From Chryseobacterium aurantiacum (GTDB lineage Bacteria > Bacteroidota > Bacteroidia > Flavobacteriales > Weeksellaceae): DNA of 64,000 bases. Positions 12,666-44,167 of this stretch are shown here, one piece after another. Where the stretch lies: the NCBI RefSeq assembly GCF_003020585.1, contig NZ_PXUE01000002.1, positions 434,001 to 498,000 of the forward strand, in the 5' to 3' direction. Positions within the stretch are counted from its first letter, which is position 1, and each line of letters starts with the position of its first letter. Both the position numbers and the translations under genes were made by a program. Below the pieces are notes generated by a model that worked only from the letters and a program-made list of their open reading frames with translations, was not told the origin of the DNA and did no database searches.

Positions 12666-14495
12666 TTACTTCGCTTTATTCACATCTGTAAGGGCATTCA
12701 AAAAGGCAATAATCTGATTGATTTCTGTTTGGGTAAGATTCAATTTATCCGGGGCAAGTGTCTGGTTTTTCATCTTTAATCCCAATCCTTCGCCTCCTCC
12801 TTCATTATAGAAATCAAGAACTTCCTCCAGAGTATTGAAGGCTCCGTTATGAAAGTATGGTTTTGTAAGTGCAATATTTCTAACGGTAACAGTTTTGAAT
12901 GAATAATCGTAGATCCAGGATTTTTCCTTTTTCACAGGGCTGTTTCCTCTTCCAAGATCATGATCAAGCTCAATAGGAAGCTGCTTGATTGGTTTTGTAG
13001 TTACCCCCAGAACCTCAGATTCATTTTCATTAAAGAAAGGAGGAACCAATCCTGAAAAATGAGGAGCAAAATGACAGGTCGCACAACTTGCTTTTCCCAT
13101 AAACAAATTGAATCCTTTTTTCACCTCATCAGAAACATTCTTTTCATTCCTCATAAAACGATCAAAATCACTATCAAAAGAGTATAAAGATGCCACATAG
13201 GAACTTAGAGCCTTTGAAAAATTCTCTTTATTGATCTTTCCATCCTTAAAGGCAGTACGAAAAGCTTTCTTATATTCAGGTTTGGTTTTTAGCTTCTGAA
13301 TGATGCTTTCGTAACTGGTATTAAATTCTTCTTCATTGTAAATCACATGTTCTGCCTGCTGTTCAAGATAAAAAGCACGAAGATCATAGAAGAATCTCTT
13401 GGCAAAAACAGCATTGTATAACGATGGTGAATTTCTCAGCACTGTTTTTCCCTCTACATTGCTTGGCGACTTGCCTTTAAGATCTGTAAAGGCGTTTTCC
13501 GGAAGATGACAGGTGGCACAGCTCATTTTTCCGTTACCACTTAGATTTCCGTCATAGAAAATTGATTTCCCCAGGTTACGAAGATCCGGATTATCTTCTG
13601 ATGATTTCAATAAGGTATAAAAATAAGGATCTAAGAAATCACTACTGAAGAGGTTTTTATTATTGACATTCCAGCCGGAAAATTCCTTTAAGTCATCAGG
13701 TCTTCCATCCCATTTTCCTAATTCTTCATACAGGGGCTGAATATATTTTTTATAAAATTCAATTCTGTCAAAGGTTTCAAAATCCTTGTTTTTTGAAAGA
13801 TAGCCCATAGCTTCCGTTAGTGTCTGGTTAGCCTTTTCAGTATTATAATTTTTAAAATAAGGGTCATCACTGATATATTTTTGAATTCCCAAAAGCGCAT
13901 GGCTGGCTTCTTCCGAAATATTCAGGGAACCCGGTGTATCAAAACCTGTTACGCCTAGACTATAAATTCTGATAAGCTCTATACGCAACGGCAATGTTTT
14001 ATTATTCCCTTTGCTCAATCCATTTTTTATGGTACTCAGATAAAAACTAGAATAGCTGTTGTACAAAAAGTCTGTGATTGTTTTTATTTTTTCCTTTTCC
14101 TCTCCGGCTTCCTCCGAAAATATCAACTCATCCAAAACCTGTAATCCTTCAGGAGGAAGTGTATAAGCCGATGTACCCGCAGCTTCAATATGGAACAAAG
14201 GGGCAGCATTCACGTGTGTCTTTGTAAACTCAGGATAATGGTAGGCAATATAGAATTCTATTTCCTTAAATGAGTTTCTTGTACTGCTTAGCGATTTTTG
14301 TAATTCTCCAAGAGAAATACGGTCTTCTGAGAATTGATGGACATCGGATTTCAATTGTTCAAGTTTACCCTTAAAATCGGATAATCCTTTATTGACAAAT
14401 GTATTCTCACTTTTTTCTCCTTTATAAACAGGATTAAAGGACATTACTGCAAACCCTATGAAAAGGATAACTACAAGCAGTGGATAAGATCTCAT
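12666..14495 (-). CDS. Dihaem cytochrome c peroxidase (MauG/CcpA family) with a ~280-residue N-terminal domain
   Basis: Two haem c sites are visible: C326-A-T-C329-H330 ('MSCATCHLPENAF') and C471-A-T-C474-H475 ('ASCATCHFAPHF'). The region from ~300 to the end matches the CCP/MauG fold, including 'NSPSLYNAVFAKRFFYDLRA' and the C-terminal 'VRNIALTKPYFHNGAFNTLEEVL'. The usual family length is ~330-400 aa; this one has 609. The extra N-terminal part is helical, follows a membrane-anchor or signal segment, and contains 'AAGTSAYTLPPEGLQVLDEL'. That is reminiscent of imelysin/EfeO-type helical domains (weak inference). It should act in the periplasm, reducing H2O2 or oxidising a protein-bound substrate. 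It is a monocistronic unit. Confidence 0.9.
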   Translation of the reverse strand: MRSYPLLVVILFIGFAVMSFNPVYKGEKSENTFVNKGLSDFKGKLEQLKSDVHQFSEDRISLGELQKSLSSTRNSFKEIEFYIAYHYPEFTKTHVNAAPLFHIEAAGTSAYTLPPEGLQVLDELIFSEEAGEEKEKIKTITDFLYNSYSSFYLSTIKNGLSKGNNKTLPLRIELIRIYSLGVTGFDTPGSLNISEEASHALLGIQKYISDDPYFKNYNTEKANQTLTEAMGYLSKNKDFETFDRIEFYKKYIQPLYEELGKWDGRPDDLKEFSGWNVNNKNLFSSDFLDPYFYTLLKSSEDNPDLRNLGKSIFYDGNLSGNGKMSCATCHLPENAFTDLKGKSPSNVEGKTVLRNSPSLYNAVFAKRFFYDLRAFYLEQQAEHVIYNEEEFNTSYESIIQKLKTKPEYKKAFRTAFKDGKINKENFSKALSSYVASLYSFDSDFDRFMRNEKNVSDEVKKGFNLFMGKASCATCHFAPHFSGLVPPFFNENESEVLGVTTKPIKQLPIELDHDLGRGNSPVKKEKSWIYDYSFKTVTVRNIALTKPYFHNGAFNTLEEVLDFYNEGGGEGLGLKMKNQTLAPDKLNLTQTEINQIIAFLNALTDVNKAK

Positions 14496-32729: not shown

Positions 32730-34685
32730 ATGAAAAAAATCACTACTTTTCTATTAGGCCTTACCGCTCCATTCTATTTTGCCCAGCAGGCTGGTGACGT
32801 GGTAAGCGCTGAACAAAAACTCGATTTAACTCCGCAGGGCGTTATTAATTTTATTGCCAATAATCTTGGTGAACAGAATGCTCCAGACTTTGCAAGTTAT
32901 CTCAATAGCTTCAATGTAGGTTTAAAAGGTTACAAAATCACCTATTATACCAAAAATGAAAATAACGTCCTTGTAAAAGCTACGGGACTCCTAATGTATC
33001 CTAATGTAGGCTATAAACTCTCCACTGTTGTATCTGATCACGGGACTACGGACAGCAGACAGAATGTTCCCTCCAATTTTAAGGGAGCCCTTACTGCCGG
33101 CTTTGTGGTTGAACTTTCCTATGTCCTCAATGGTTATATTTTGATGGCTCCTGACTATGTAGGGATGGGGACCGGAGATGGAGTTCATCCTTATGTAGAC
33201 TATGCCACCGAAGCCGGAGCAACCATAGATTTTGTAACAGCAGCTAATAAGGTACTGGCAGAATTGAATGTAAAACGTTATGATGAGTATTTTTTAGCCG
33301 GATATTCTCAGGGAGCACATGCCGCGATGTCTACCCTAAAAAGGTTAAGCATTTCCAACCCAACCAATCTGAAATTTAAGTATGCCTACATGGGGGACGG
33401 CCCTTATGACTTCTCAGGAGTTACCTTGAATAAAGGGGTTTTAGAAAAAGACTTTTATCCGTTTACTTCGTTTCTTGCCAATGTTCTCCATACCTGCAAC
33501 AATACAGGATTCAAAACTTATAATACAGATATTTCTGAAGTAATCTCTGCGGAATACCTTGACAAATACAACTACCATGTGGTTCAGGATAACGGCGGCT
33601 TATTGTGGGGGCCTGTGATCTGGAAGAAGCTTTTCACCAACAATTTCATCAATGATGTTACCAATAATCCCAACAACAAGCTTAGACAATGTATGAAGCC
33701 TAAGGACGTGTATGACTGGTATAACAAAACTCCAATGACGCTAGGCCATTCTACTGTTGATCTAGCAATACCCCCTGAAAACACTTCCAAAACCATTGAT
33801 GTGCAAAGAGGATATTATGCCTGGTGGGATTTGAATAAATACAAACTGGATTCTTTTTATTGGGGACCCATAGGCCATGTTGGCGGGATACTCCCGTTTA
33901 CATTAGCATCCAATGCCAAATTCAATACACTGAGAAGCGGTGGTCTTCTTAATCAATGGGCTATAGCAGGATCTATTTTTGGTAAGCAATCCGCAAACAG
34001 TGCAAATCAGGAAATCCCTACTCTATATTCTTCTCAAATAAAACCTGATCTTGGAAATATGGAACTTCTTGAAATCACGGATTTTAATAAAGAAAAAGCA
34101 GTCAGCAGATCCACTGTAAACCGTAGCTTGTCTACTTTAGAGGATGGTGTTTATCTTCTAAAAGTATCGGAAAACAATGAAAGCAAAATAATACCGTACA
34201 TTAAAGATACTCCAAAGGAAGTCGCAGAAAACGAGATTGTACAATCAGAAAGCAGTGCTCTTTTGAAATTAAAGATCAATCAGGATGAGCTTTCTTCCAT
34301 TAATATATTTGACGAAAATAAATCTCTGATTAAAACTGTTTCTAAGGATCAGTATCATGAAAACGGCGGGATCAGTCTGCAAAATTTGGATTCCCAAAAG
34401 TATACGTTTGAAGTGGTCACTTCCTACTACAATCTACAATTCAGCAAGTCCCTTGGAAAATCCTCGGAAAACAATACAGATATCTTTGCCCAAAACCGAC
34501 AGATCAAGGCCAGGGCTAATAGTGACATCAAAAACATCAGCATCTACAGCATTTCCGGAGCTTTAATTCTTCAGCAGGACGTTAATGCTTTCCAATATGA
34601 ATCTAGAACTCTGGATACCGGAGTGTATGTGGTACAGATTACTCTTTCCAGTGGAAAAACAATCAATAAAAAAATTAAATTATAA
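32730..34685 (+). CDS. T9SS-secreted alpha/beta hydrolase (lipase/esterase-like)
   Basis: A signal peptide (…APFYFAQ) leads into an alpha/beta-hydrolase domain over residues ~60-420. The nucleophile is S193 in 'LAGYSQGAHAAM' (GxSxG). Asp and His candidates are in 'TMTLGHSTVD'-like and 'WGPIGHVGGILPF' segments. 'DHGTTDSRQNVPSNF' and 'MAPDYVGMGTGDGVHPYVD' match secretory lipase/esterase-type enzymes. The last ~85 residues are a type A T9SS sorting domain ('ISIYSISGALILQQDV… SSGKTINKKIKL'). The linker 435-560 is a beta-rich region. It should be exported and possibly anchored at the surface. The substrate (lipid, ester or peptide) is open. Confidence 0.85.
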   Translation: MKKITTFLLGLTAPFYFAQQAGDVVSAEQKLDLTPQGVINFIANNLGEQNAPDFASYLNSFNVGLKGYKITYYTKNENNVLVKATGLLMYPNVGYKLSTVVSDHGTTDSRQNVPSNFKGALTAGFVVELSYVLNGYILMAPDYVGMGTGDGVHPYVDYATEAGATIDFVTAANKVLAELNVKRYDEYFLAGYSQGAHAAMSTLKRLSISNPTNLKFKYAYMGDGPYDFSGVTLNKGVLEKDFYPFTSFLANVLHTCNNTGFKTYNTDISEVISAEYLDKYNYHVVQDNGGLLWGPVIWKKLFTNNFINDVTNNPNNKLRQCMKPKDVYDWYNKTPMTLGHSTVDLAIPPENTSKTIDVQRGYYAWWDLNKYKLDSFYWGPIGHVGGILPFTLASNAKFNTLRSGGLLNQWAIAGSIFGKQSANSANQEIPTLYSSQIKPDLGNMELLEITDFNKEKAVSRSTVNRSLSTLEDGVYLLKVSENNESKIIPYIKDTPKEVAENEIVQSESSALLKLKINQDELSSINIFDENKSLIKTVSKDQYHENGGISLQNLDSQKYTFEVVTSYYNLQFSKSLGKSSENNTDIFAQNRQIKARANSDIKNISIYSISGALILQQDVNAFQYESRTLDTGVYVVQITLSSGKTINKKIKL

Positions 34686-34728
34686 CATCTAATCCATTTT
34701 CTATAAATATCATTTCAAGTTAATTTTT

Positions 34729-34757
34729 GCACTCCAGCAATGGGGTGCTTTTTTATT
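34729..34757 (+). terminator. Terminator of the T9SS hydrolase gene
   Basis: GCACTCC (34729-34735) pairs with GGGGTGC (34742-34748), one G-T pair, followed by TTTTTTATTT. The remainder of the 355-bp gap up to 35040 holds only AT-rich sequence and the operator/promoter described next. Confidence 0.8.
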
Positions 34758-34963
34758 TCTTGAAATGCCGTTCCTATTTTAATATTGGATCACTATAGAA
34801 TCTTATTTTTCTAAAGAAACAAATAACTCTAAAAAAAATAATTAGAAATATTATTTAAAACATCTCATTCAAGTAACCAATTATCCTTATTACAATACAT
34901 TCACAGACATTTTTCAAGTTTTACATTCCAAAAAAGTTAATAGTTGTTAAATGATTTTTGTCA

Positions 34964-35021
34964 CTTATTTTAAATTATTCTAAATAAGATTAGTAAACTT
35001 ATAAAGAGGCTCCTAACTTTG
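34964..35021 (+). promoter_or_regulatory. Control region of the TonB receptor/peroxidase operon
   Basis: A 25-bp imperfect palindrome at 34964-34988 has arms CTTATTTTAAAT and ATTCTAAATAAG (10 of 12 pairs, one centre base). It lies just upstream of the -7 element TAACTTTG (35014-35021). The position overlaps where a -33 box would be, as expected for a repressor. The arms resemble AT-rich Fur-type boxes, which I recall only in outline for this phylum, so the identity is a guess. Confidence 0.5.
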
Positions 35022-35040
35022 CCGAAAGAATAATGTCCCG

Positions 35041-37833
35041 ATGGTAAATGATCCCATATCTCCTTTTAAATTTCAAATTTTCTCTTTCCTGTTTTTTTTC
35101 ATTACATGCACAACAGTCAAAGCACAGGAACAGCATGTTGCGATTCTGATTGAAGTAAAAGACACTGATTTTAAACCAATTAAAGATTTGGATATAAAAA
35201 TAGAATCGGATCAAAATAAATATTCAACATCAACTAATGATAAAGGAATTTCAGCAATAACCCTCATCCCGGGAACCTATAAGATTGAAATTCGTAAGAA
35301 CGGAATCCTTGGTTATTCTAACAGAATATCTGTTTCAAAACCGGAAACATTTGCCATTTCCTTTACAGAAAAAATCAATAGGATTGAAGAAGTTGTCATT
35401 ACCGCAAAAGAAGGTAAAGGCCTTACCTCATCATCCATTATCAGTCAGCGTGCCATGCAGCATCTGCAGCCGTCCAGTTTTAGTGACCTTTTGGAGTTGC
35501 TTCCCGGTGGAAGATCTACAGATCCCGTCCTGAATCAAGTTAATAAAATACAACTACGGGAAACAGGAAATCCGGGGACTGACTATAACACTTCAGCCAT
35601 GGGAACAACTTTCCTTGTAGATGGGGCTCCATTAAATTCAGGCTCCAATCTTCAATATACCTATGATTTTTTAGATAAAACCAATAACGGACTTAAAAGA
35701 AGACTCAACATGACCAGCGGTGTAGACATGAGAAGTATTTCCACAGACCAAATTGAACGTGTGGAAGTTCTGCGTGGAATTCCCTCTGTAGTCTACGGAA
35801 ACCTTACTTCGGGAATTGTAAAGATCACCAACAGATCCGGATATACGAAATGGAGAGCAAGATTCAAGGCAGATGGCTACAGTAAGCTTTTTGCTCTTAG
35901 CAAAGGGTTTGAAAACAAGGAGCATAATTTAAAAATCAATGCCGGAATTGATTATCTGAATGCAAAATCAGATCCAAGGGACCGTCTTGAAAATTACAAA
36001 AGAATTACCGCTAATCTCTCTTTGATAAAGGAAAAGAAGCACAACACAGGAACTTCCAGATGGCAGACCAATCTTAGTTATACCACATCTTTGGACGGTT
36101 CAAAGTCTGATCCGGATGTTGACCTGTCTGATCTGAATTCTTATGAGGTTAATAATCATTTACTAAGCTTGTCCAATACCTTCACCTATACGAAAAATGA
36201 ACCTGCTTTTTACCAATCAACAGAAGTTCAGGCTACTGTTAATCAAAGGTTTGATAAAATTAAACAGACCAAATTCATCCAGTTGGAAAATGCAACCGCC
36301 TTTCCTTTGTCTAGAACAGAAGGAGAATACGACGGTTATTATCCGGAAGCCCGCTACATATCCAACTATACGGTAGATGGGAAGCCGCTTGATGTATTTG
36401 TGAAAATGGTTAATAATTTCCAGTTGGATCTAAAGCCTTTTAAAAATGAATTCAATACAGGTTTTGACTGGCAGTTCAGTAAAAACTGGGGAGATGGGCA
36501 GTTATTTGATATTTATAAGCCCATAGATCCTAAATCTACCTTCAGGCCTCGTGCCTATCGTGATATTCCGGCATATGTTACCTCTGCTTTATTTCTGGAG
36601 TCCATCAGCACTTTTGAACCGGGAAGGCACAAACTCACTTTGGCATTGGGAGTAAGAGGAAACTTGATGATGAACCTACCCTCTCATTTCAGAATGAATG
36701 GAAAAGTATATCATGATCCCAGAGCCAATTTCCAATGGGAATTACCTTCTTTTAACTGGATGCAAAAAAAAGCTCAGATCTCCCTTACACTGGGATATGG
36801 GAAGCAAAGTTTATTTCCTGACCTCAGTTTGCTATACCCAGAACTTATTTACAAGGATATTCAGCAACTGAATTATTTCCACAATAATCCCAATTACAGA
36901 AGAGTCAATTACAAAACGATGATCTATAATCCACAGAACCCGGAAATAGAGCCTGCTATGAATGAAAAATTTGAGGCAAGAATCGACTTTAGTCTGGGTG
37001 CACACCAGCTATCTGTAACTGCTTTTAAGGAAAATATGCATAATGCTTTCCGCTCCATGAACGAATATGCACAGTATCAATATAAGAAATATGACACCTC
37101 AACTCTTAATCATGAGGCCATAACCACTCCGCCGGATGTGAACACCCTTCCGTATCAGACTATCAGTGAAAACTTCACATATGCTTCCCAAAGAAACGGC
37201 AGTAGGATTGATAAAGAAGGAATTGAATTTCAGTATTCTTCCAACAGAATTCCGGTCATCAATACAAGGTTTACTCTAAATGGAGCTTGGTTTCGTACAA
37301 AATATGGAAACAGTTTACCCGTCTACAGAGGTCGTGATCTTACCATTAACGGAAGACCTTACCCCTATCTCGGATTGTATGAGGGCATGGAACCCAGCTC
37401 AGTAAATGAGGTTCTAAATACGAATCTGATGCTGGACACCTACATCCCAAAGCTGGATCTGATATTCTCATCTTCTATCCAGTTCTCATGGTATTCTATG
37501 AGAAAGCTGGATCCTATGAACGGTATACCGAGTCATTATATAAATCAGGATGGTGTTATTCTGCCTTTTGATGCCGATGCTGTCAGAGGAACCCTTCTTG
37601 AAAATTTAATTATTGCTCAAAACGGCGACCGCTATAATGCAACAAGAAGACCTTTGGAAACCAATCTCAACTTTAAGGTTACCAAGAGTTTCAGACATAA
37701 GACCGTGGTAGTATCCATGTTTGCCAACAGGCTTTTCAGTTATTATGCACCTTATAGCATTAACGGGATTACCATCAACAGAAAAGGAGCCTATGACCCT
37801 TATTTTGGGATGGAGATCAATTTCAATTTATAA
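35041..37833 (+). CDS. TonB-dependent receptor with N-terminal carboxypeptidase-regulatory-like domain
   Basis: The 930-aa protein has a signal peptide ending near 'TVKAQ' and a CarboxypepD-reg-like beta-sandwich at residues ~35-115 ('IEVKDTDFKPIKDLDIKIES'). A TonB box-like 'RIEEVVITAKEG' and a plug follow ('SFSDLLELLPGG', 'VEVLRGIPSVVYGNLTSGIVKITN'), then a 22-strand barrel ending in 'GMEINFNL'. It is not SusC-like: there is no SusD partner and the plug is of the siderophore/haem/cobalamin type. It leads a four-gene operon with spacings of 21, 2 and 14 nt. The cargo is unknown; the linked peroxidase and the operator hint at a metal or haem source. Confidence 0.92.
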   Translation: MVNDPISPFKFQIFSFLFFFITCTTVKAQEQHVAILIEVKDTDFKPIKDLDIKIESDQNKYSTSTNDKGISAITLIPGTYKIEIRKNGILGYSNRISVSKPETFAISFTEKINRIEEVVITAKEGKGLTSSSIISQRAMQHLQPSSFSDLLELLPGGRSTDPVLNQVNKIQLRETGNPGTDYNTSAMGTTFLVDGAPLNSGSNLQYTYDFLDKTNNGLKRRLNMTSGVDMRSISTDQIERVEVLRGIPSVVYGNLTSGIVKITNRSGYTKWRARFKADGYSKLFALSKGFENKEHNLKINAGIDYLNAKSDPRDRLENYKRITANLSLIKEKKHNTGTSRWQTNLSYTTSLDGSKSDPDVDLSDLNSYEVNNHLLSLSNTFTYTKNEPAFYQSTEVQATVNQRFDKIKQTKFIQLENATAFPLSRTEGEYDGYYPEARYISNYTVDGKPLDVFVKMVNNFQLDLKPFKNEFNTGFDWQFSKNWGDGQLFDIYKPIDPKSTFRPRAYRDIPAYVTSALFLESISTFEPGRHKLTLALGVRGNLMMNLPSHFRMNGKVYHDPRANFQWELPSFNWMQKKAQISLTLGYGKQSLFPDLSLLYPELIYKDIQQLNYFHNNPNYRRVNYKTMIYNPQNPEIEPAMNEKFEARIDFSLGAHQLSVTAFKENMHNAFRSMNEYAQYQYKKYDTSTLNHEAITTPPDVNTLPYQTISENFTYASQRNGSRIDKEGIEFQYSSNRIPVINTRFTLNGAWFRTKYGNSLPVYRGRDLTINGRPYPYLGLYEGMEPSSVNEVLNTNLMLDTYIPKLDLIFSSSIQFSWYSMRKLDPMNGIPSHYINQDGVILPFDADAVRGTLLENLIIAQNGDRYNATRRPLETNLNFKVTKSFRHKTVVVSMFANRLFSYYAPYSINGITINRKGAYDPYFGMEINFNL

Positions 37834-37854
37834 CAATTTCAATTCAATAAAGTT

Positions 37855-39075
37855 ATGTTAAAACATTTATTTAGAACACTATTACTATTGTGTGCTGTGA
37901 TCAGCTTTGCAGCCTGTTCTTCGGATTCTGAGTCTAATTCTCCGGAGGCACAAACATCGTTAAAACTGGAACTGAAAGTAGTTCCTGAAGACATTCAGGT
38001 TAAGGAATATAAAAATCTTACCATAAATTTCAAAGAGCTTAATACCGGATTTACCACTACTCAGGAGTTAAAAAACTCCAATACCCTGAAGGTAACTCTG
38101 CCGTCTGGAACTTATAATGTAACTATAGAAGGAAGCATTGCCTATAATGATAATTCTGTGCTTACAGAAGCCAAAGTAGGTGGCGTACAAACCGGAATGG
38201 TTGTGAATGGGAATGAGATCAGCAAAACAATTAATATTGCCATGAAAGCAGGGAGCGGAGATCTGATTTTGGAGGAAGTATTTTTTACAGGAACAAAAAC
38301 TCCACAGGGAGCCATGTATTTTGGTGACCAGTATTTTAAAATCACCAATAATACAGATCAGACTTTATATGCTGACGGGATGCTGCTGATACAATCCAGC
38401 TTTATGACCAATGAGAAGCAGGATTATAGCCCTAATATTATTGGAACAACCTTATCTGCAGGTGCTATCATCAAAATTCCGGGGACAGGAACTATGTACC
38501 CTGTATTGCCTGGAGAGTCTATTATTATTGCAGAAGATGCAATTAACCATAAAGAATTCAACCCTGCTTCTATTAATCTTTCCCAGGCTAATTTTCAGAT
38601 CTTTAAAGAAGACTCTGATGATACCGATAACCCTGCAGTACCAAAAATGGTGACCGCTTTTGGAAAAATGGTCATTCATAATCAAGGTTACTATGCTTAT
38701 GCCCTGGCCCGTATGCCAAAAGGAATGAGCCATGAAGCAATGGTAGCCCAGAATACTTACACCTATACTTACAATCTTACCTTTGGAGGAGATGTTTATC
38801 CGATGGATGAAATTGCTGTTAAAATCCCTAATGAGTGGATCACAGATGTAGTGAATCTAAGTGTACAGGATTCTTTCCAGTGGGTGGTAACTTCTCCTGC
38901 TTTGGATATGGGATGGACTTCTGTTTCAACATTTGATGGAGATAAAAATCGTTTTGGAAAAGCAGTTCGCAGAAAAGTAATAGGAAAAACAATGGATGGT
39001 AAAAACATCTTAAAGGATACCAATAACTCTACTGTAGACTTTGAACATGGTGTAAAACCGTCATTATTTAATTAA
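37855..39075 (+). CDS. DUF4876-type surface lipoprotein
   Basis: This 406-aa protein has a lipobox at C21 ('ISFAACSSDSES'). Residues ~35-130 form a beta-sandwich with CnaB-like features ('PSGTYNVTIEGSIAY'). Residues ~130-400 contain 'FFTGTKTPQGAMYFGDQYFKITNNTDQTLYADG', which matches DUF4876 as I recall it. The family is confined to Bacteroidota and uncharacterised. As an acidic, Ser-rich-tethered lipoprotein following a TonB receptor, it may be the surface component that captures the receptor's cargo, in the way SusD or HmuY does, but no ligand motif is visible. It ends 2 nt before the next gene, so they are co-transcribed. Confidence 0.8.
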   Translation: MLKHLFRTLLLLCAVISFAACSSDSESNSPEAQTSLKLELKVVPEDIQVKEYKNLTINFKELNTGFTTTQELKNSNTLKVTLPSGTYNVTIEGSIAYNDNSVLTEAKVGGVQTGMVVNGNEISKTINIAMKAGSGDLILEEVFFTGTKTPQGAMYFGDQYFKITNNTDQTLYADGMLLIQSSFMTNEKQDYSPNIIGTTLSAGAIIKIPGTGTMYPVLPGESIIIAEDAINHKEFNPASINLSQANFQIFKEDSDDTDNPAVPKMVTAFGKMVIHNQGYYAYALARMPKGMSHEAMVAQNTYTYTYNLTFGGDVYPMDEIAVKIPNEWITDVVNLSVQDSFQWVVTSPALDMGWTSVSTFDGDKNRFGKAVRRKVIGKTMDGKNILKDTNNSTVDFEHGVKPSLFN

Positions 39076-39077
39076 AA

Positions 39078-40592
39078 ATGAAGAATTTTCTTTCCATACC
39101 CATTCTGTTTATATCCTTGTTCAGCATAACAGTGAATGCTCAGATCAATGATACAATTGCAGAAAAGATTCATGAAGAATACAGTTCTGAAAGGGTTTTT
39201 AAAAGCAGAATCAATGTAAATCCGGCCAGCAATTTAGATGCAAGAAAATACAGTGTTACAACTTTTAATATTTTTACGGAAATTAATAAAACCCCTTCTG
39301 AAATACAGCAAAAAGGCAAAGGTAAAAACCTATGGGGAGCGGAAGCCCTCACTCTGCAAAAGCTGGATCACCAAACAACAGTATGGGGAAATGCATCTTA
39401 TTCGCAAGGAAAGAACAAACAGATCGTATGGAATGAAAATGCTGATTATGAACTTATCTACCCCTACGTAGCCGCTGACAGCGTAGGGGGTGATATGAAG
39501 TTTGAAAACTATGCTTTTTCGGGAGGGTATTCAAAACAGATTAACACCCTTACCATTGGGATTACAGGAAGCTATAGGGCGAGCCTGAGCTATCGTGATA
39601 CAGATCCAAGACCCAAGAATACAACAGCCAATTTTTCACTGGCATTGGGGGTCAATAAAATGATGTTTCAAAAGTTTAAAATTGGAGCTTATTTCGATGC
39701 AGAAAAATATACCCAGAAGCACTATCTGAGTTTTGTGAGCAATCAGGGATTTCCTACCATCTATAACATGAGCGGATTGGGAAATTATAATGAACTTCTC
39801 TCAGGAAAGCTTCGTCAGGCTTACTATGAAGGGTGGTCCTACGGAGGTGGTTTTCAAATATATGAACCTAATAACAGGAACTGGTATCTTAGTATTGGTC
39901 TGAAAAAATTCAATATGGATAAGATTCTGACAGAATATACGGATCTTAATGCCTCAAAAATAAACGAGCAGCAGTTTAGTTTTTCATTAGGAAAGTTCTT
40001 TGAAACAGACAAAATCCTCTGGGGGCTTTCTGTAGATGGAAGCAGTACGGAAAGAAAAGGAACAGAGAATCTTTTTCTCAATGAAAACTCCAGAAATTAT
40101 ATTCAGATAGGTACTGTAGAAAAATACAGCCATAAAATGAACAACATATTGCTTAAAGGACTGTTGCAAATAGGAAATAAAAGTGCAAGATCCTCTATTA
40201 TGCCCTATTTTGGATGGATGCAGGATAAAGAAAAATACACCACTCCATTATCAATAATTGATTTAAGTAAACTTGTATATGGCGCAGATTATCAATGGTT
40301 CAAAACTCTTAAAAACAATCTGGCTATTTCTGTATCATTAGGCCTTTCGGTAACCGATGTTTATCAGAAAAACGGAATATTCAATAACTCCGGAAAACCC
40401 GCCATCAATCAAATGCTGCAAGAGAACTATGCTTACCGCTCCTCTGATTTCTGGCAATCAAAACTGGATATTAATTTTCACTTCAACGTTCCCGTGATAA
40501 AAAATGCATATGTAGGCAGCAAGATCATTTACAGCAACTTCAATAATGGCAACAATGTATTATTTGCAGCCACTATAGGAAGTATTTTTTAA
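39078..40592 (+). CDS. DUF6850-type outer-membrane beta-barrel protein
   Basis: The 504-aa protein has a signal peptide (…SITVNAQ) and then alternating amphipathic strands with aromatic ends ('YLSIGLKKFNM', 'LSVDGSSTERKG') up to a C-terminal phenylalanine ('VLFAATIGSIF'). This is the composition of an outer-membrane beta-barrel of ~18-20 strands without a TonB plug. I place it in DUF6850 by its neighbours and length (recall, not certain). It could be a passive channel or an anchor for the DUF4876 lipoprotein. It sits between that lipoprotein and the peroxidase, and no homologue of known function comes to mind. Confidence 0.72.
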   Translation: MKNFLSIPILFISLFSITVNAQINDTIAEKIHEEYSSERVFKSRINVNPASNLDARKYSVTTFNIFTEINKTPSEIQQKGKGKNLWGAEALTLQKLDHQTTVWGNASYSQGKNKQIVWNENADYELIYPYVAADSVGGDMKFENYAFSGGYSKQINTLTIGITGSYRASLSYRDTDPRPKNTTANFSLALGVNKMMFQKFKIGAYFDAEKYTQKHYLSFVSNQGFPTIYNMSGLGNYNELLSGKLRQAYYEGWSYGGGFQIYEPNNRNWYLSIGLKKFNMDKILTEYTDLNASKINEQQFSFSLGKFFETDKILWGLSVDGSSTERKGTENLFLNENSRNYIQIGTVEKYSHKMNNILLKGLLQIGNKSARSSIMPYFGWMQDKEKYTTPLSIIDLSKLVYGADYQWFKTLKNNLAISVSLGLSVTDVYQKNGIFNNSGKPAINQMLQENYAYRSSDFWQSKLDINFHFNVPVIKNAYVGSKIIYSNFNNGNNVLFAATIGSIF

Positions 40593-40606
40593 ATTAAAGA
40601 AATATC

Positions 40607-41743
40607 ATGAAATTTTCAACTCTTAAACTCATTCTGCTGATTGGCCTACTCTCCTTTTTCTTCATGCAGCATACCGTACAGAAATATAGTATAGACTATG
40701 GTGAAGTTGTGGAACAATACAAAAAACCAGTACAATTCTGGCCTTCCCCATCAGTAGATCCTGATGTTAAATGGAAAGAATTTGAAGCAATAGAACAGGA
40801 TTCCAATTATTACGATACTCAGGAGCTTCCCGAGGTAATGTTAGGAAAAAAACTATTTTTTGATCCTAAGCTATCAGCATCCAGCCAAATATCATGCAGC
40901 AGTTGTCACAATCCTGAACTGGGATGGAGCGACGGGCAGGAAGTAGCTCTGGGCAATGATCACTTACAGGGAAAAAGAAATACGCAGTCCCTTTTTAATA
41001 TTGCGGAAAGAACATCTTTTTTTTGGGACGGAAGAGCAAAAACACTGGAAGAACAGCTTGTAGGACCTATCTCTGCCCACAACGAAATGAATATGAAGCC
41101 TGAAAAGCTTGCAGGGAAACTTTCTAAGATTAAAGAATACAAAGTACTTTTTAAGGACGTTTATCAAACTGACAAAATTACATTTGACAAAATAGCCCAA
41201 GCCCTGGCAACCTTTCAAAAAACCCTTAAAAGTCAGCCAAGCAAGCTGGATAAGTTTATAAAGGGAGATCATAAGGCAATGAGCAACAAAGAAATCTACG
41301 GCATGCACCTGTTCAGAACAAAAGCCCGATGCATGAACTGCCACTACGGAAAGTATATGACGGATGAATCTTTCCATAATATCGGACTTACCTACTACAA
41401 ACGTGAATACGAGGATCTGGGTTTATTTACCGTTACAAAGAACCCCAATGATGTAGGAAAATTCAAGACCCCATCTCTAAGGGATCTGGAATATACCGCT
41501 CCCTGGATGCACAATGGATTGATGGATGACCTGCATGGTGTTGTAAGCCTATACAACAGCGGAATGCAAATGATTAACCCTACACCGGAAGAAAAAAAGG
41601 CAGATCCCAATTTCCCGGTAACAGACCATCTAATGAAGCCCCTGAATCTTAATGAGCAGGAATTGGATGCTGTTGTTTCATTTTTAAAATGTATTTCAGG
41701 AAGCTATTACAAAATGCCCAGACCTGAAATTCCAAGGAAATAA
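40607..41743 (+). CDS. Dihaem cytochrome c peroxidase
   Basis: The 378-aa protein has two haem c motifs: C97-S-S-C100-H101 ('ISCSSCHNPELGWSDG') and C242-M-N-C245-H246 ('ARCMNCHYGKYMTD'). An uncleaved or cleaved N-terminal helix ('LILLIGLLSFFFMQH') exports or anchors it. 'KRNTQSLFNIAERTSFFWDGRAKTLEEQ' and 'FKTPSLRDLEYTAPWMHNG' match bacterial CCP/MauG enzymes. Unlike the larger peroxidase at 12.7 kb, it has the normal family length. As the last gene of the TonB receptor operon it may oxidise the cargo, or a metal, or protect the transport step from H2O2. Confidence 0.92.
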   Translation: MKFSTLKLILLIGLLSFFFMQHTVQKYSIDYGEVVEQYKKPVQFWPSPSVDPDVKWKEFEAIEQDSNYYDTQELPEVMLGKKLFFDPKLSASSQISCSSCHNPELGWSDGQEVALGNDHLQGKRNTQSLFNIAERTSFFWDGRAKTLEEQLVGPISAHNEMNMKPEKLAGKLSKIKEYKVLFKDVYQTDKITFDKIAQALATFQKTLKSQPSKLDKFIKGDHKAMSNKEIYGMHLFRTKARCMNCHYGKYMTDESFHNIGLTYYKREYEDLGLFTVTKNPNDVGKFKTPSLRDLEYTAPWMHNGLMDDLHGVVSLYNSGMQMINPTPEEKKADPNFPVTDHLMKPLNLNEQELDAVVSFLKCISGSYYKMPRPEIPRK

Positions 41744-41762
41744 AAAAGATTACAGCTAGTAT

Positions 41763-41801
41763 AAAAAAGAACCTTATCCGAATGAATAAGGTTCTTTTTT
41801 G
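41763..41801. terminator. Bidirectional terminator between the peroxidase operon and the patatin gene
   Basis: AAAAGAACCTTAT and ATAAGGTTCTTTT pair perfectly around CCGAATGA, with A and T runs on either side, between two convergent genes. Confidence 0.9.
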
Positions 41802-41803
41802 TT

Positions 41804-44167
41804 TTAAAATTTAAATCCTATACTGAAATAGATTCTTGAAAAATCAAGTTGGTTATTTCGGGAAACATTCAGGTTAATAGGACCTAAAAGTGATTCGTAT
41901 CCTAAATTTACGCCGTAGCCAAACATGTCGTAGCTATTATTAAAGGGAGAAAACTCATCACTTACCTTTCCGTAGGTAAAGGATGGGCTAAGGTATAGTT
42001 TTTTCATAATTCTGTACTGAAGAGACAACCCTACTTTCGCTACAGAAGTCATGGGTAACTCTTTTTGACGAAGACCGTTAAATTCAGGGTTTAAAAGGTC
42101 GGAATTATATTCACTGCCTCCCAGGTTATATTTCTGGTTAAGAAAAAGATAAGGCACCTTATCTTCTCTTTGCGCACCAAAGCTAGCTCCTAAAAACACA
42201 TTGGCTTTAGCAGCAAGTCTTCTTGTAATGGGATAGGCAAAATTCTCGTTTAAGGTAAAGGAAACAAGATTCTTAGGTTCGTAATAATAAGAGTCCTTAG
42301 GGTTCAACAATGGGTACAACAGAGGCTGTACCGTTTCAAGATCATATAACTCATATTGATTTCCGTAGTAGAATCTTGTACTGACCTGAAGATGATTTCC
42401 TCTTGTAAAGAAGTATCTTTTATTCAGATTATTCTGCTCGAATTTCAAAAATGTATTAAAATTACTATGATTGTAAAGCTTTTTACTATAATTATCAAAC
42501 TTGGCCTGATCTACTTTGTCCAGTAAACTGTACATCCTTTCAGTACTGAATTCTGTTCCGATAGAAATAACGGCATTAGGGCTGATATTATAATTTAAAG
42601 CAATTTTCCCTGTAATGTTTCGGTACATATGATTCGGAAATCGTGTATTGTAGTCCTCATCAAGACTAAATACCCTAAACGTTAAATCATTACTTTTAAG
42701 ATGAACAATCTTGGCTTCAAGATCCAGCCACCAATGATCCCCACTTCCCAGGAAACGCTGGTAAGCCAACCGGGCTTTAAAACGCTCTGAAACATCTACT
42801 GTTGCAAGAAATCTTGATCGGTTGGCAAGGATATTTCTATAGGTATAGTTCACAATAATCCCTACGGACTGTTCAGTATCATAATGAAGAGCCAGTTTAA
42901 AGGCTCCTTTTTTTATCTTCTTAACAAAAATATTCATGATAAGGCCATCTCCTGCATTGGTATAGGTATAATAAACCTTTTCATACTGACGCATCCCGAA
43001 TACCCTGTCTATTGCCTCATTTACGGTTTTCACATCATAATATTCCCCTTCTGATAATCTCAGTTCTTTTTTAATCACATCAATCTCAACAGGGTCTGTA
43101 AGCGGCGTTCCGTTTTCTTCGTTAAAAGTAAATTTTATAGTGGGCAGCTTTACCTCTTCAATCATTTCGTGCTCATACTTAATTCCCGCTCTTCGTTGAG
43201 CTTCTGCCAATGCTACAAATTCAGGAAGATGTCTTTTGGCTTCCATTTCCCCAATTTTAATAATCCTTCTGAATCGGGCAAAGTCTTTTGTAGTAATATC
43301 ACCCAAAGGATCTACAAAGTCTACCAGAATATTGGAAAGCGCTTTTTGATGCTTGAAATCCTCTACAGAACGAATGGCGTGAGTCTGATAGATCATCTTC
43401 ATCGGGTTTTCAATTTCTTTCTTTGTGAAAAGCCTGAAGCCTGTGTAGCCTCCAATTACAAAGTCAGCCCCCATCTGGCGTACTTCATTTGCCGGATAAT
43501 TACGATCCAGCCCTCCGTCTACCAAAAGCTTTCCATCAATATAAACCGGTGCAAATGCGGCAGGTATTGCCAATGTAGAGCGGATAGCTAGTGGCAACGA
43601 TCCCTTTTTCTGCATAACTAATCCGCCATTTTCAATATCTGAAGAAGTAAGCTCCACAGGAATACGCAGCTGGCTGAAATCGTTGATATGTTTTGCATTA
43701 AATGTCAGAGTATTGAGAACTTCACCCATATATTGTCCTTCAATATAAGAACTCGGGAGAGTTGGGATTCCTTTTACTACAGGAAATTCAAGAATATATT
43801 TATCATATTCATCCTTTTCACTGATATTAACCTTACTGTAAGGGATTTTGTTGCTCAGAATTCTGTTCCAATCTACCTTATAAATGGTCTTCTTTAGCTG
43901 ATCTGCATTGTACCCCATTGCATATAAACCTCCCAGAATACCTCCCATACTGGTTCCCGTAATATAATCAACCTTAATTCCCAGGGAATCAATCATCTTT
44001 AAAATACCAATGTGAGCAAATCCCTTTGCCCCACCACCACTTAGTGCCAATCCAAACTTGGTTTCTTGGGTGATATTTTGTAATCTGACATTCAGGGAAT
44101 CGTTTATTTGTTGGGATTGAAGGGATAAAGAAAAAACGATTGTAAAAAATATCAGGAGCTTTTTCAT
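41804..44167 (-). CDS. Patatin-like phospholipase with C-terminal beta-barrel
   Basis: The 787-aa protein has a signal peptide followed by a patatin domain (residues ~38-330). It has the oxyanion loop 'LALSGGGAKGFAHIG', nucleophile S73 ('ITGTSMGGILGG') and catalytic D217 ('LLVDGGLDRNYP'). A POTRA-like segment occupies ~340-420 ('LSEGEYYDVKTVNEAIDRVFGM'). Residues ~430-787 form a beta-barrel ending in Phe ('IYFSIGFKF'), with Omp85/BamA-type repeats. This order matches PlpD/RssA-like type Vd-related proteins, in which the barrel may hold or translocate the lipase. The domain order is clear; function is inferred. It is a single gene, isolated by a terminator downstream. Confidence 0.9.
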   Translation of the reverse strand: MKKLLIFFTIVFSLSLQSQQINDSLNVRLQNITQETKFGLALSGGGAKGFAHIGILKMIDSLGIKVDYITGTSMGGILGGLYAMGYNADQLKKTIYKVDWNRILSNKIPYSKVNISEKDEYDKYILEFPVVKGIPTLPSSYIEGQYMGEVLNTLTFNAKHINDFSQLRIPVELTSSDIENGGLVMQKKGSLPLAIRSTLAIPAAFAPVYIDGKLLVDGGLDRNYPANEVRQMGADFVIGGYTGFRLFTKKEIENPMKMIYQTHAIRSVEDFKHQKALSNILVDFVDPLGDITTKDFARFRRIIKIGEMEAKRHLPEFVALAEAQRRAGIKYEHEMIEEVKLPTIKFTFNEENGTPLTDPVEIDVIKKELRLSEGEYYDVKTVNEAIDRVFGMRQYEKVYYTYTNAGDGLIMNIFVKKIKKGAFKLALHYDTEQSVGIIVNYTYRNILANRSRFLATVDVSERFKARLAYQRFLGSGDHWWLDLEAKIVHLKSNDLTFRVFSLDEDYNTRFPNHMYRNITGKIALNYNISPNAVISIGTEFSTERMYSLLDKVDQAKFDNYSKKLYNHSNFNTFLKFEQNNLNKRYFFTRGNHLQVSTRFYYGNQYELYDLETVQPLLYPLLNPKDSYYYEPKNLVSFTLNENFAYPITRRLAAKANVFLGASFGAQREDKVPYLFLNQKYNLGGSEYNSDLLNPEFNGLRQKELPMTSVAKVGLSLQYRIMKKLYLSPSFTYGKVSDEFSPFNNSYDMFGYGVNLGYESLLGPINLNVSRNNQLDFSRIYFSIGFKF

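Follow-up and report, generated by a model that had tools for sequence, protein, structure and literature searches.

A Fur-box-like site and a MauG-like di-haem enzyme accompany a candidate ferric-chelate uptake operon in Chryseobacterium aurantiacum

Several loci of Bacteroidota that pair a TonB-dependent receptor with a DUF4876 protein respond to iron starvation. Under low iron, Porphyromonas gingivalis PG1019-PG1022 rises 20.8-214.5 fold, and Bacteroides thetaiotaomicron BT3625-33 and BT1933-39 rise 36.7-128 fold and 3.5-7.4 fold, respectively (PMC10434189). BT_1938, within the last of these loci, is the DUF4876 protein of known structure (PDB 4q1z). In a haemin table (PMC10470040), a P. 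gingivalis DUF4876 gene has a log2 change of -5.42 and HmuY, listed next to it, one of -6.11; the sign probably gives the change with more haemin. Here we analyze an operon with the same pairing of TonB receptor and DUF4876, located in 64,000 nucleotides of the C. aurantiacum genome (contig NZ_PXUE01000002.1, positions 434,001 to 498,000; hereafter the window). Unlike this operon, the three loci have no di-haem enzyme named in the parts of the low-iron report available to us, and BT3625-33 contains PepSY, ABC and DUF4857 genes (PMC10434189). An initial annotation of the window, made from sequence alone, knew of no described function for the combination. The relatives give it a record of strong iron regulation, although no function is stated for them in those sources. 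In the open-access literature searched, we found no function for a DUF4876/DUF6850 operon, which is no proof of absence, and no mention of DUF6850; the Capnocytophaga iron capture system is named in one article found. Because related DUF4876 loci rise under low iron, the core of the operon appears to be an uptake system for iron starvation, visible so far in transcriptomes and uncharacterised. New here is a MauG-like enzyme placed under a Fur-type box together with DUF4876 and DUF6850.

The operon consists of four closely packed genes, with intergenic gaps of 21, 2 and 14 bp (Table 1). Pfam models identify the products, as Plug in the receptor (47.3 bits, cut-off 23.9), DUF4876 (190 bits), DUF6850 (268 bits) and CCP_MauG (183 bits). 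The siderophore-receptor model TIGR01783 scores the receptor at 25 bits, far below its cut-off of 223.5. No SusD model matches any of the four proteins in the Pfam scan, and the set is not a SusCD pair. DUF6850 has no plug model, and its predicted structure (predicted local distance difference test score 91.4) aligns in VIA-align over 281-296 residues with porin-type barrels, best with Bdellovibrio OmpA (Z 18.4), and also with CymA (Z 17.6). Foldseek places siderophore receptors first, at a template-modelling score of about 0.37. We read the prediction as a porin-like barrel and take nothing finer from these fold searches. For DUF4876, 4q1z is the sole clear match, with weak pilin-like rows besides. 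The tight spacing, the lack of SusD and the plugless second barrel had all been described in the initial annotation and are borne out here. A second complete copy of the four genes, with its own palindrome, is found on another contig of the same genome.

Table 1. Positions of the operon and adjoining elements in the window.
Feature	Position	Strand	Basis
TonB-dependent receptor, 930 residues, N-terminal extension plus Plug	35041..37833	+	open reading frame, Pfam
DUF4876 lipoprotein, 406 residues, Cys21, relative of BT_1938 (PDB 4q1z)	37855..39075	+	open reading frame, Pfam, structure match
DUF6850 outer-membrane-type beta-barrel without plug, 504 residues	39078..40592	+	open reading frame, Pfam, predicted structure
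MauG-like di-haem enzyme (CCP_MauG), 378 residues, with two CxxCH motifs and Tyr316 aligned to MauG residue 294	40607..41743	+	open reading frame, Pfam, alignments
Imperfect palindrome, Fur-box-like putative operator	34964..34988	.	sequence inspection, genome pattern search
TAACTTTG, fit to TAnnTTTG, which we take to be the -7 promoter motif of Bacteroidota	35014..35021	+	position read off sequence
Terminator-like stem-loop after the preceding lipase-like gene, which has a type IX secretion system (T9SS) tail	34729..34748	+	sequence scan

The conservation of the operon was analyzed in a phylum sample of 395 genomes and an order sample of 296 genomes, of which 37 and 22, respectively, carry DUF4876. 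Two sets of loci were compared. The 60-locus set contains 42 of the 47 DUF4876 places in the phylum sample, our own two included, and 18 new ones from the order sample; the five places left out are second copies in G062, G093, G216, G243 and G263. The 80-locus set holds the best 80 of 151 loci, with rumen 'Bacteroidia' metagenome-assembled genomes classed as Bacteroidales. The sets overlap (for example L111/L187, L114/L233 and L050/L198) and were never summed, except in a residue count of 74 enzymes that are partly duplicates. Receptor, DUF4876 and DUF6850 lie on one strand in all 60 loci, as detected with models iterated on these same loci (E <=1e-8), and one of the DUF6850 genes is only a stub where its contig ends. 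DUF4876 and DUF6850 are at most 300 bp apart in 57/60 loci, and receptor and DUF4876 in 52/60. With the independent Pfam model, DUF6850 is present in 35 of the 37 DUF4876 genomes, and 35 of the 37 genomes above the DUF6850 cut-off contain DUF4876; the other two hold weak matches (29-31 bits) in longer frames. The 80-locus set has the trio in 77 loci. Contig ends truncate two of the exceptions (L218 and L227), and the third (L219), cut on one side, has no DUF6850 within its 7 kb. TonB receptor, DUF4876 and DUF6850 are the core, and the four genes are not obligate: the enzyme stands beside 24 of the 60 trios (10/42 phylum-sample and 14/18 order-sample loci) and is missing beside the remaining 36. 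The four-gene set of the initial annotation thus recurs across Bacteroidota as a trio and only in part with its enzyme. The phylum sample links DUF4876 and DUF6850, so far names without function, with one another, with a TonB receptor and with iron starvation. In two loci (L051 and L106), a short extra DUF4876-like frame of 127 residues lies beside the receptor gene, and DUF6850 precedes the full DUF4876 gene.

The imperfect palindrome ahead of the receptor gene spans 25 bp, with 10 of 12 arm positions complementary when counted by eye. Its core, ATTTTAAATTATTCTAAAT, has 2 mismatches to the consensus derived here, ATTTAGAATNATTCTAAAT, and 3 over 19 bases to the Riemerella rhuB box; the 19-base core of the consensus differs from that Fur box, ATTTAGAATTATCCTAAAT, at 1 position. 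The core in the window is thus a 19-mer resembling the Riemerella-type ATTTAGAAT-N-ATTCTAAAT, and it lies 74 bp 5' of the receptor ATG. Purified Fur bound Riemerella promoters in an electrophoretic mobility shift assay (PMC5609570, PMC10986502). Across the 4.6-Mb genome, the symmetrised 23-mer finds 21 sites at up to 3 mismatches and the reversed pattern finds none, and 0/200 single-base shuffles of the upstream region match the core as well as the real site does. The core is found upstream of the receptor gene in 15/15 Chryseobacterium operons (up to 3 mismatches). Among the non-Bacteroidales operons of the 80-locus set, a box at up to 4 mismatches precedes 43/49 with the enzyme and 6/8 without it; the reversed-pattern control gives 3/49 and 0/8, and 0/18 in Bacteroidales. 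The palindrome is, judged by its sequence, a Fur-box-like site of the metalloregulator kind first proposed for it, to which Fur would bind. Comparison of orthologues upheld that proposal within the genus. Further afield the site is weak or absent in several lineages, and it is equalled in at most 10/200 shuffles in only 19 of the 58 loci with enough upstream DNA; orthologous operons lacking the enzyme or the box therefore do occur, which is the outcome that the initial annotation had named as refuting its proposal. For 15 of the 21 genomic sites the surroundings were retrieved, and ten neighbouring proteins were scanned. Three are TonB receptors, and the others include a T9SS-tailed protein, an AraC regulator accompanied by an ABC transporter, and a decarboxylase paired with a TauD-like gene; two further neighbours, DUF488 and PNPOx, have no visible iron link.

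The last gene of the operon was called a peroxidase in the initial annotation. Its two CxxCH motifs and CCP_MauG domain bear out a two-haem enzyme, and the class needs revision. The best NCBIfam matches are MauG (TIGR03791, 228.2 bits, cut-off 443.85) and MbnH (TIGR04039, 200.2 bits, cut-off 362.85), and since both curated cut-offs are missed by far, the enzyme is neither. Its best PDB matches are di-haem peroxidases. Tyr316 aligns without gaps to MauG residue 294, which binds the second haem, and with a Met of the peroxidase 3hq8 that we take to be a haem ligand. Tyr occupies this position in 74/74 linked enzymes (the partly duplicate count mentioned above) and in 15/16 others. These alignments point to an enzyme that is MauG-like in a broad sense and not a classical cytochrome c peroxidase. 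The window also encodes a second, longer CCP_MauG protein (12666-14495, - strand, 609 residues). This distant relative of the operon enzyme likewise has Tyr at the MauG-type position; its N-terminal half, for which Pfam gives no match, looks imelysin-like by eye.

The enzyme follows a split between lineages. In the 80-locus set it stands beside 50/58 non-Bacteroidales loci and 0/22 Bacteroidales loci, and no weaker match was found in those 22 loci. We take the enzyme-bearing lineages to be mainly oxygen-using. Genes near enzyme-free trios include PepSY, ABC and DUF4857 (L048), a HEAT protein (L055), and T9SS-tailed YCF48/BNR proteins; by gene content, L048 and L055 are candidate counterparts of the P. 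gingivalis and B. thetaiotaomicron loci. Ten loci also have, close to the trio, a frame of about 300 residues that looks lipoprotein-like by eye (for example L057:3912-4736, L058:3215-4159 and L065:10565-11461); nine of these loci fall outside the window's class, and the two members scanned have no Pfam match. In the enzyme tree, three unlinked copies (L130, L156 and L159) fall among the linked ones with good support, which fits an old linkage that was sometimes lost; L157, L158 and L160 form long branches. More distant relatives stand last in operons made up of a SusC-type receptor, a gene or gap of SusD length, and a lipoprotein. Eight genomes have such operons (L131, L132, L163-L167 and L161), seven belonging to a single genus of the order and one to another family. 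By eye, sigma/FecR-like genes lie ahead of some of them. SusD is confirmed by Pfam in L131 only, the 492-residue lipoprotein of L131 has no Pfam match, and a site is present in 0/8 of these loci at up to 3 mismatches and in 4/8 at 4 mismatches.

Taken together, the iron-regulated relatives, the match to 4q1z and the porin-like DUF6850 make a Fur-controlled ferric-chelate importer the best reading. We favour, with modest confidence, a Fur-repressed outer-membrane uptake operon for a chelate of the siderophore or haem type, with the enzyme doing redox work on that chelate. When iron is short, Fur would leave the box and the operon would be expressed. The DUF4876 lipoprotein would bind cargo at the cell surface and hand it to the TonB receptor, and the open DUF6850 barrel may serve as a dedicated partner channel. 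The metal or haem cargo suggested initially agrees with the Fur-box-like site and the low-iron induction of the relatives, and an iron-linked cargo is the likely one. The MauG-like enzyme would act in the periplasm, as an addition made in some, mainly oxygen-using, Bacteroidota. Our preferred guess, held with low confidence, is that its redox work on the imported chelate helps to release iron, because the enzyme belongs to the importer's Fur-boxed unit, is tied to lineages presumed to use oxygen, and has PepSY standing in its place in L048 and BT3625-33.

Two further results support this reading, each with a caveat. Trees of the four genes are congruent (r 0.895-0.975, at most 0.579 in 999 permutations, 14-17 of 20 splits in common, 23 loci), as vertical descent by itself would also predict. 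Of the 395 genomes, 11 have both enzyme and DUF4876, 26 DUF4876 alone, 12 the enzyme alone and 346 neither (p 7e-7), a count biased towards association, as trio-linked enzymes had supplied the enzyme model, at most four candidates per genome were scored, and kinship was not corrected for. A stricter count, in which enzymes of at least 570 bits occur solely in DUF4876 genomes (10/10, p 1.5e-11), was dropped as circular, 9 of the 10 genomes having contributed rows to the enzyme model. Several observations weigh against this reading. The enzyme is lacking from 7 of the 58 non-Bacteroidales loci, an eighth (L188) having it in split frames. It occurs without DUF4876 in 12 genomes, and in two of these, G210 and G300, it stands alone without a good box. 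Only four of the 34 genomes with an enzyme-free trio carry an unlinked enzyme; that of G002 speaks for the reading, with its own box 47 bp upstream (2 mismatches), and none was found near those of G253, G359 and G589. Of the six unlinked copies inspected (L130 and L156-L160), a box at up to 3 mismatches accompanies just one. PepSY takes the enzyme's place in a single locus of our sets, besides BT3625-33. Finally, the box (up to 4 mismatches) precedes 0/18 Bacteroidales operons, which means that iron control in this order has to act through a different site.

The main rival to the favoured reading, possible yet on the unlikely side in our view, is peroxide defence. Here a periplasmic peroxidase would clear H2O2 as ferric chelates pass and would have no part in uptake chemistry. 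The resemblance to di-haem peroxidases among PDB structures, the restriction of the enzyme to non-Bacteroidales lineages in the 80-locus set and its ability to stand alone all suit this alternative, as does the AhpC-like gene that follows one enzyme-free trio (L052). Iron-poor Elizabethkingia is highly sensitive to H2O2 (PMC7221216), and a table of P. gingivalis transcripts under oxidative stress (PMC10101095) includes PG_1019 and PG_1020; we take from it the listing and not the meaning of its columns. Against it stand the Tyr found in every linked enzyme where peroxidase 3hq8 has Met, a co-inheritance with the receptor that exceeds the need of a general defence, and the cost of two haems for an enzyme made when iron is lacking. 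The same cost poses a sharp question, namely what a cell short of iron gains by spending two haems on a MauG-like enzyme. The split between lineages in the 80-locus set makes the question testable. A further reading, which we regard as doubtful, the more so because PepSY is seen in place of the enzyme in one locus here and one in print, treats the trio as an importer of iron chelates found throughout the phylum, with a redox module that can be exchanged. That module would be a MauG-like enzyme using O2 or peroxide in aerobes and a PepSY reductase in some gut anaerobes, and either would free iron from the same kind of cargo in the periplasm. If so, MauG-like chemistry would act on a small imported molecule and not on a protein.

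An action on protein is what a third alternative proposes. As suggested for SACCP on MopE, the enzyme would create a metal or chelate site by oxidising an aromatic residue in one of its partners (lipoprotein, barrel or receptor). In MopE a Trp is converted to kynurenine, and the MbnP/MbnH pair, like our enzyme, is often near TonB-type receptors (PMC3621798). The NCBIfam matches to MauG and MbnH and the conserved Tyr at the MauG position agree with such a role; MbnP, however, was absent among the partner genes of the operon in the Pfam scan. For DUF4876, DUF6850 and the receptor of the 60-locus set, we compared columns of W, Y, M, H and C, together with mixed aromatic classes, between the 24 enzyme-bearing and 36 enzyme-free loci; the barrel and receptor comparisons exclude L112, and the receptor comparison also excludes L057. 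In the 80-locus set, W, Y, M, H, C and K columns were compared between enzyme-bearing, enzyme-free non-Bacteroidales and Bacteroidales loci, numbering 51/6/22 for DUF4876, 51/6/17 for DUF6850 and 50/5/18 for the receptor; L246, L188 with its split frames, L190 and L229 with split or repeated ones and, by a length filter, short frames were dropped beforehand. In none of the three partners does a column reach at least 90% with the enzyme and at most 30% in the enzyme-free non-Bacteroidales, of which there are only 5-6. The two conserved Trp of DUF4876 (328 and 354) are kept in Bacteroidales too. Three candidate positions were rejected. DUF6850 Y145, the best difference of the 60-locus set (1.0 vs 0.33), vanished in the 80-locus set (1.0 vs 1.0). 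The largest differences of the latter are DUF6850 Y172 (0.90 vs 0.33), which is at 1.0 in Bacteroidales, and receptor K261 (0.96 vs 0.40). By this comparison of residues, MopE-like maturation has no support, and we consider it improbable. Uptake of another metal or cofactor (copper, manganese or cobalamin) under Fur-family control is very improbable: the barrel and receptor folds are common to many importers and MauG-like pairs elsewhere serve copper (PMC3621798), but the box is close to the iron-responsive Fur box of the related genus Riemerella (PMC5609570, PMC10986502) and low iron induces the relatives (PMC10434189).

The gene ahead of the operon (32730-34685, +), set apart from it by the stem-loop, encodes a protein with a T9SS tail and a secretory-lipase match below threshold. 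Downstream, at 41804-44167, a patatin/Omp85-type gene runs convergently. An Rfam scan of 34600-42000 gave no match, and a sigma-70 promoter scan was at chance (22 vs 23.7). Elsewhere in our sets, a genome with two DUF4876 trios has a separate MbnP plus MbnH-like pair (L158:1-1483), the MbnH-like gene being cut by the end of that locus.

Four described systems share parts of this design. One is XusABC (BT2063-2065), which takes up xenosiderophores and whose lipoprotein-type gene presumably encodes a surface lipoprotein. Like the present operon, it has a TonB receptor beside that gene; it also has a PepSY gene and is induced by iron starvation (PMC10434189). It differs in having DUF4374 in place of DUF4876, and neither DUF6850 nor a MauG-like enzyme is named for it in the parts of that report available to us. 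MbnH/MbnP, SACCP/MopE and CorB/CorA each place a MauG-like di-haem enzyme beside a partner protein (PMC3621798). These pairs are copper-linked, whereas here MbnP is missing and the MbnH cut-off is not reached. The redox enzyme of BT2473-82 (porin/thiol oxidoreductase/M75 imelysin) is, we assume, also a di-haem protein. As here, a redox enzyme and a porin share one iron-starvation locus, induced 69-324 fold; the enzyme family differs by annotation, imelysin replaces DUF4876, and no TonB receptor is named in what we could consult of the source (PMC10434189). EfeUOB/FepABC, as far as covered in the portion of its description available to us, relies on a DyP peroxidase, EfeO and the permease EfeU and is without an outer-membrane importer, but like the operon as we read it, it is a Fur-repressed unit with a haem enzyme outside the cytoplasm, and its EfeB/FepB peroxidase drives the use of haem iron (PMC3577903).

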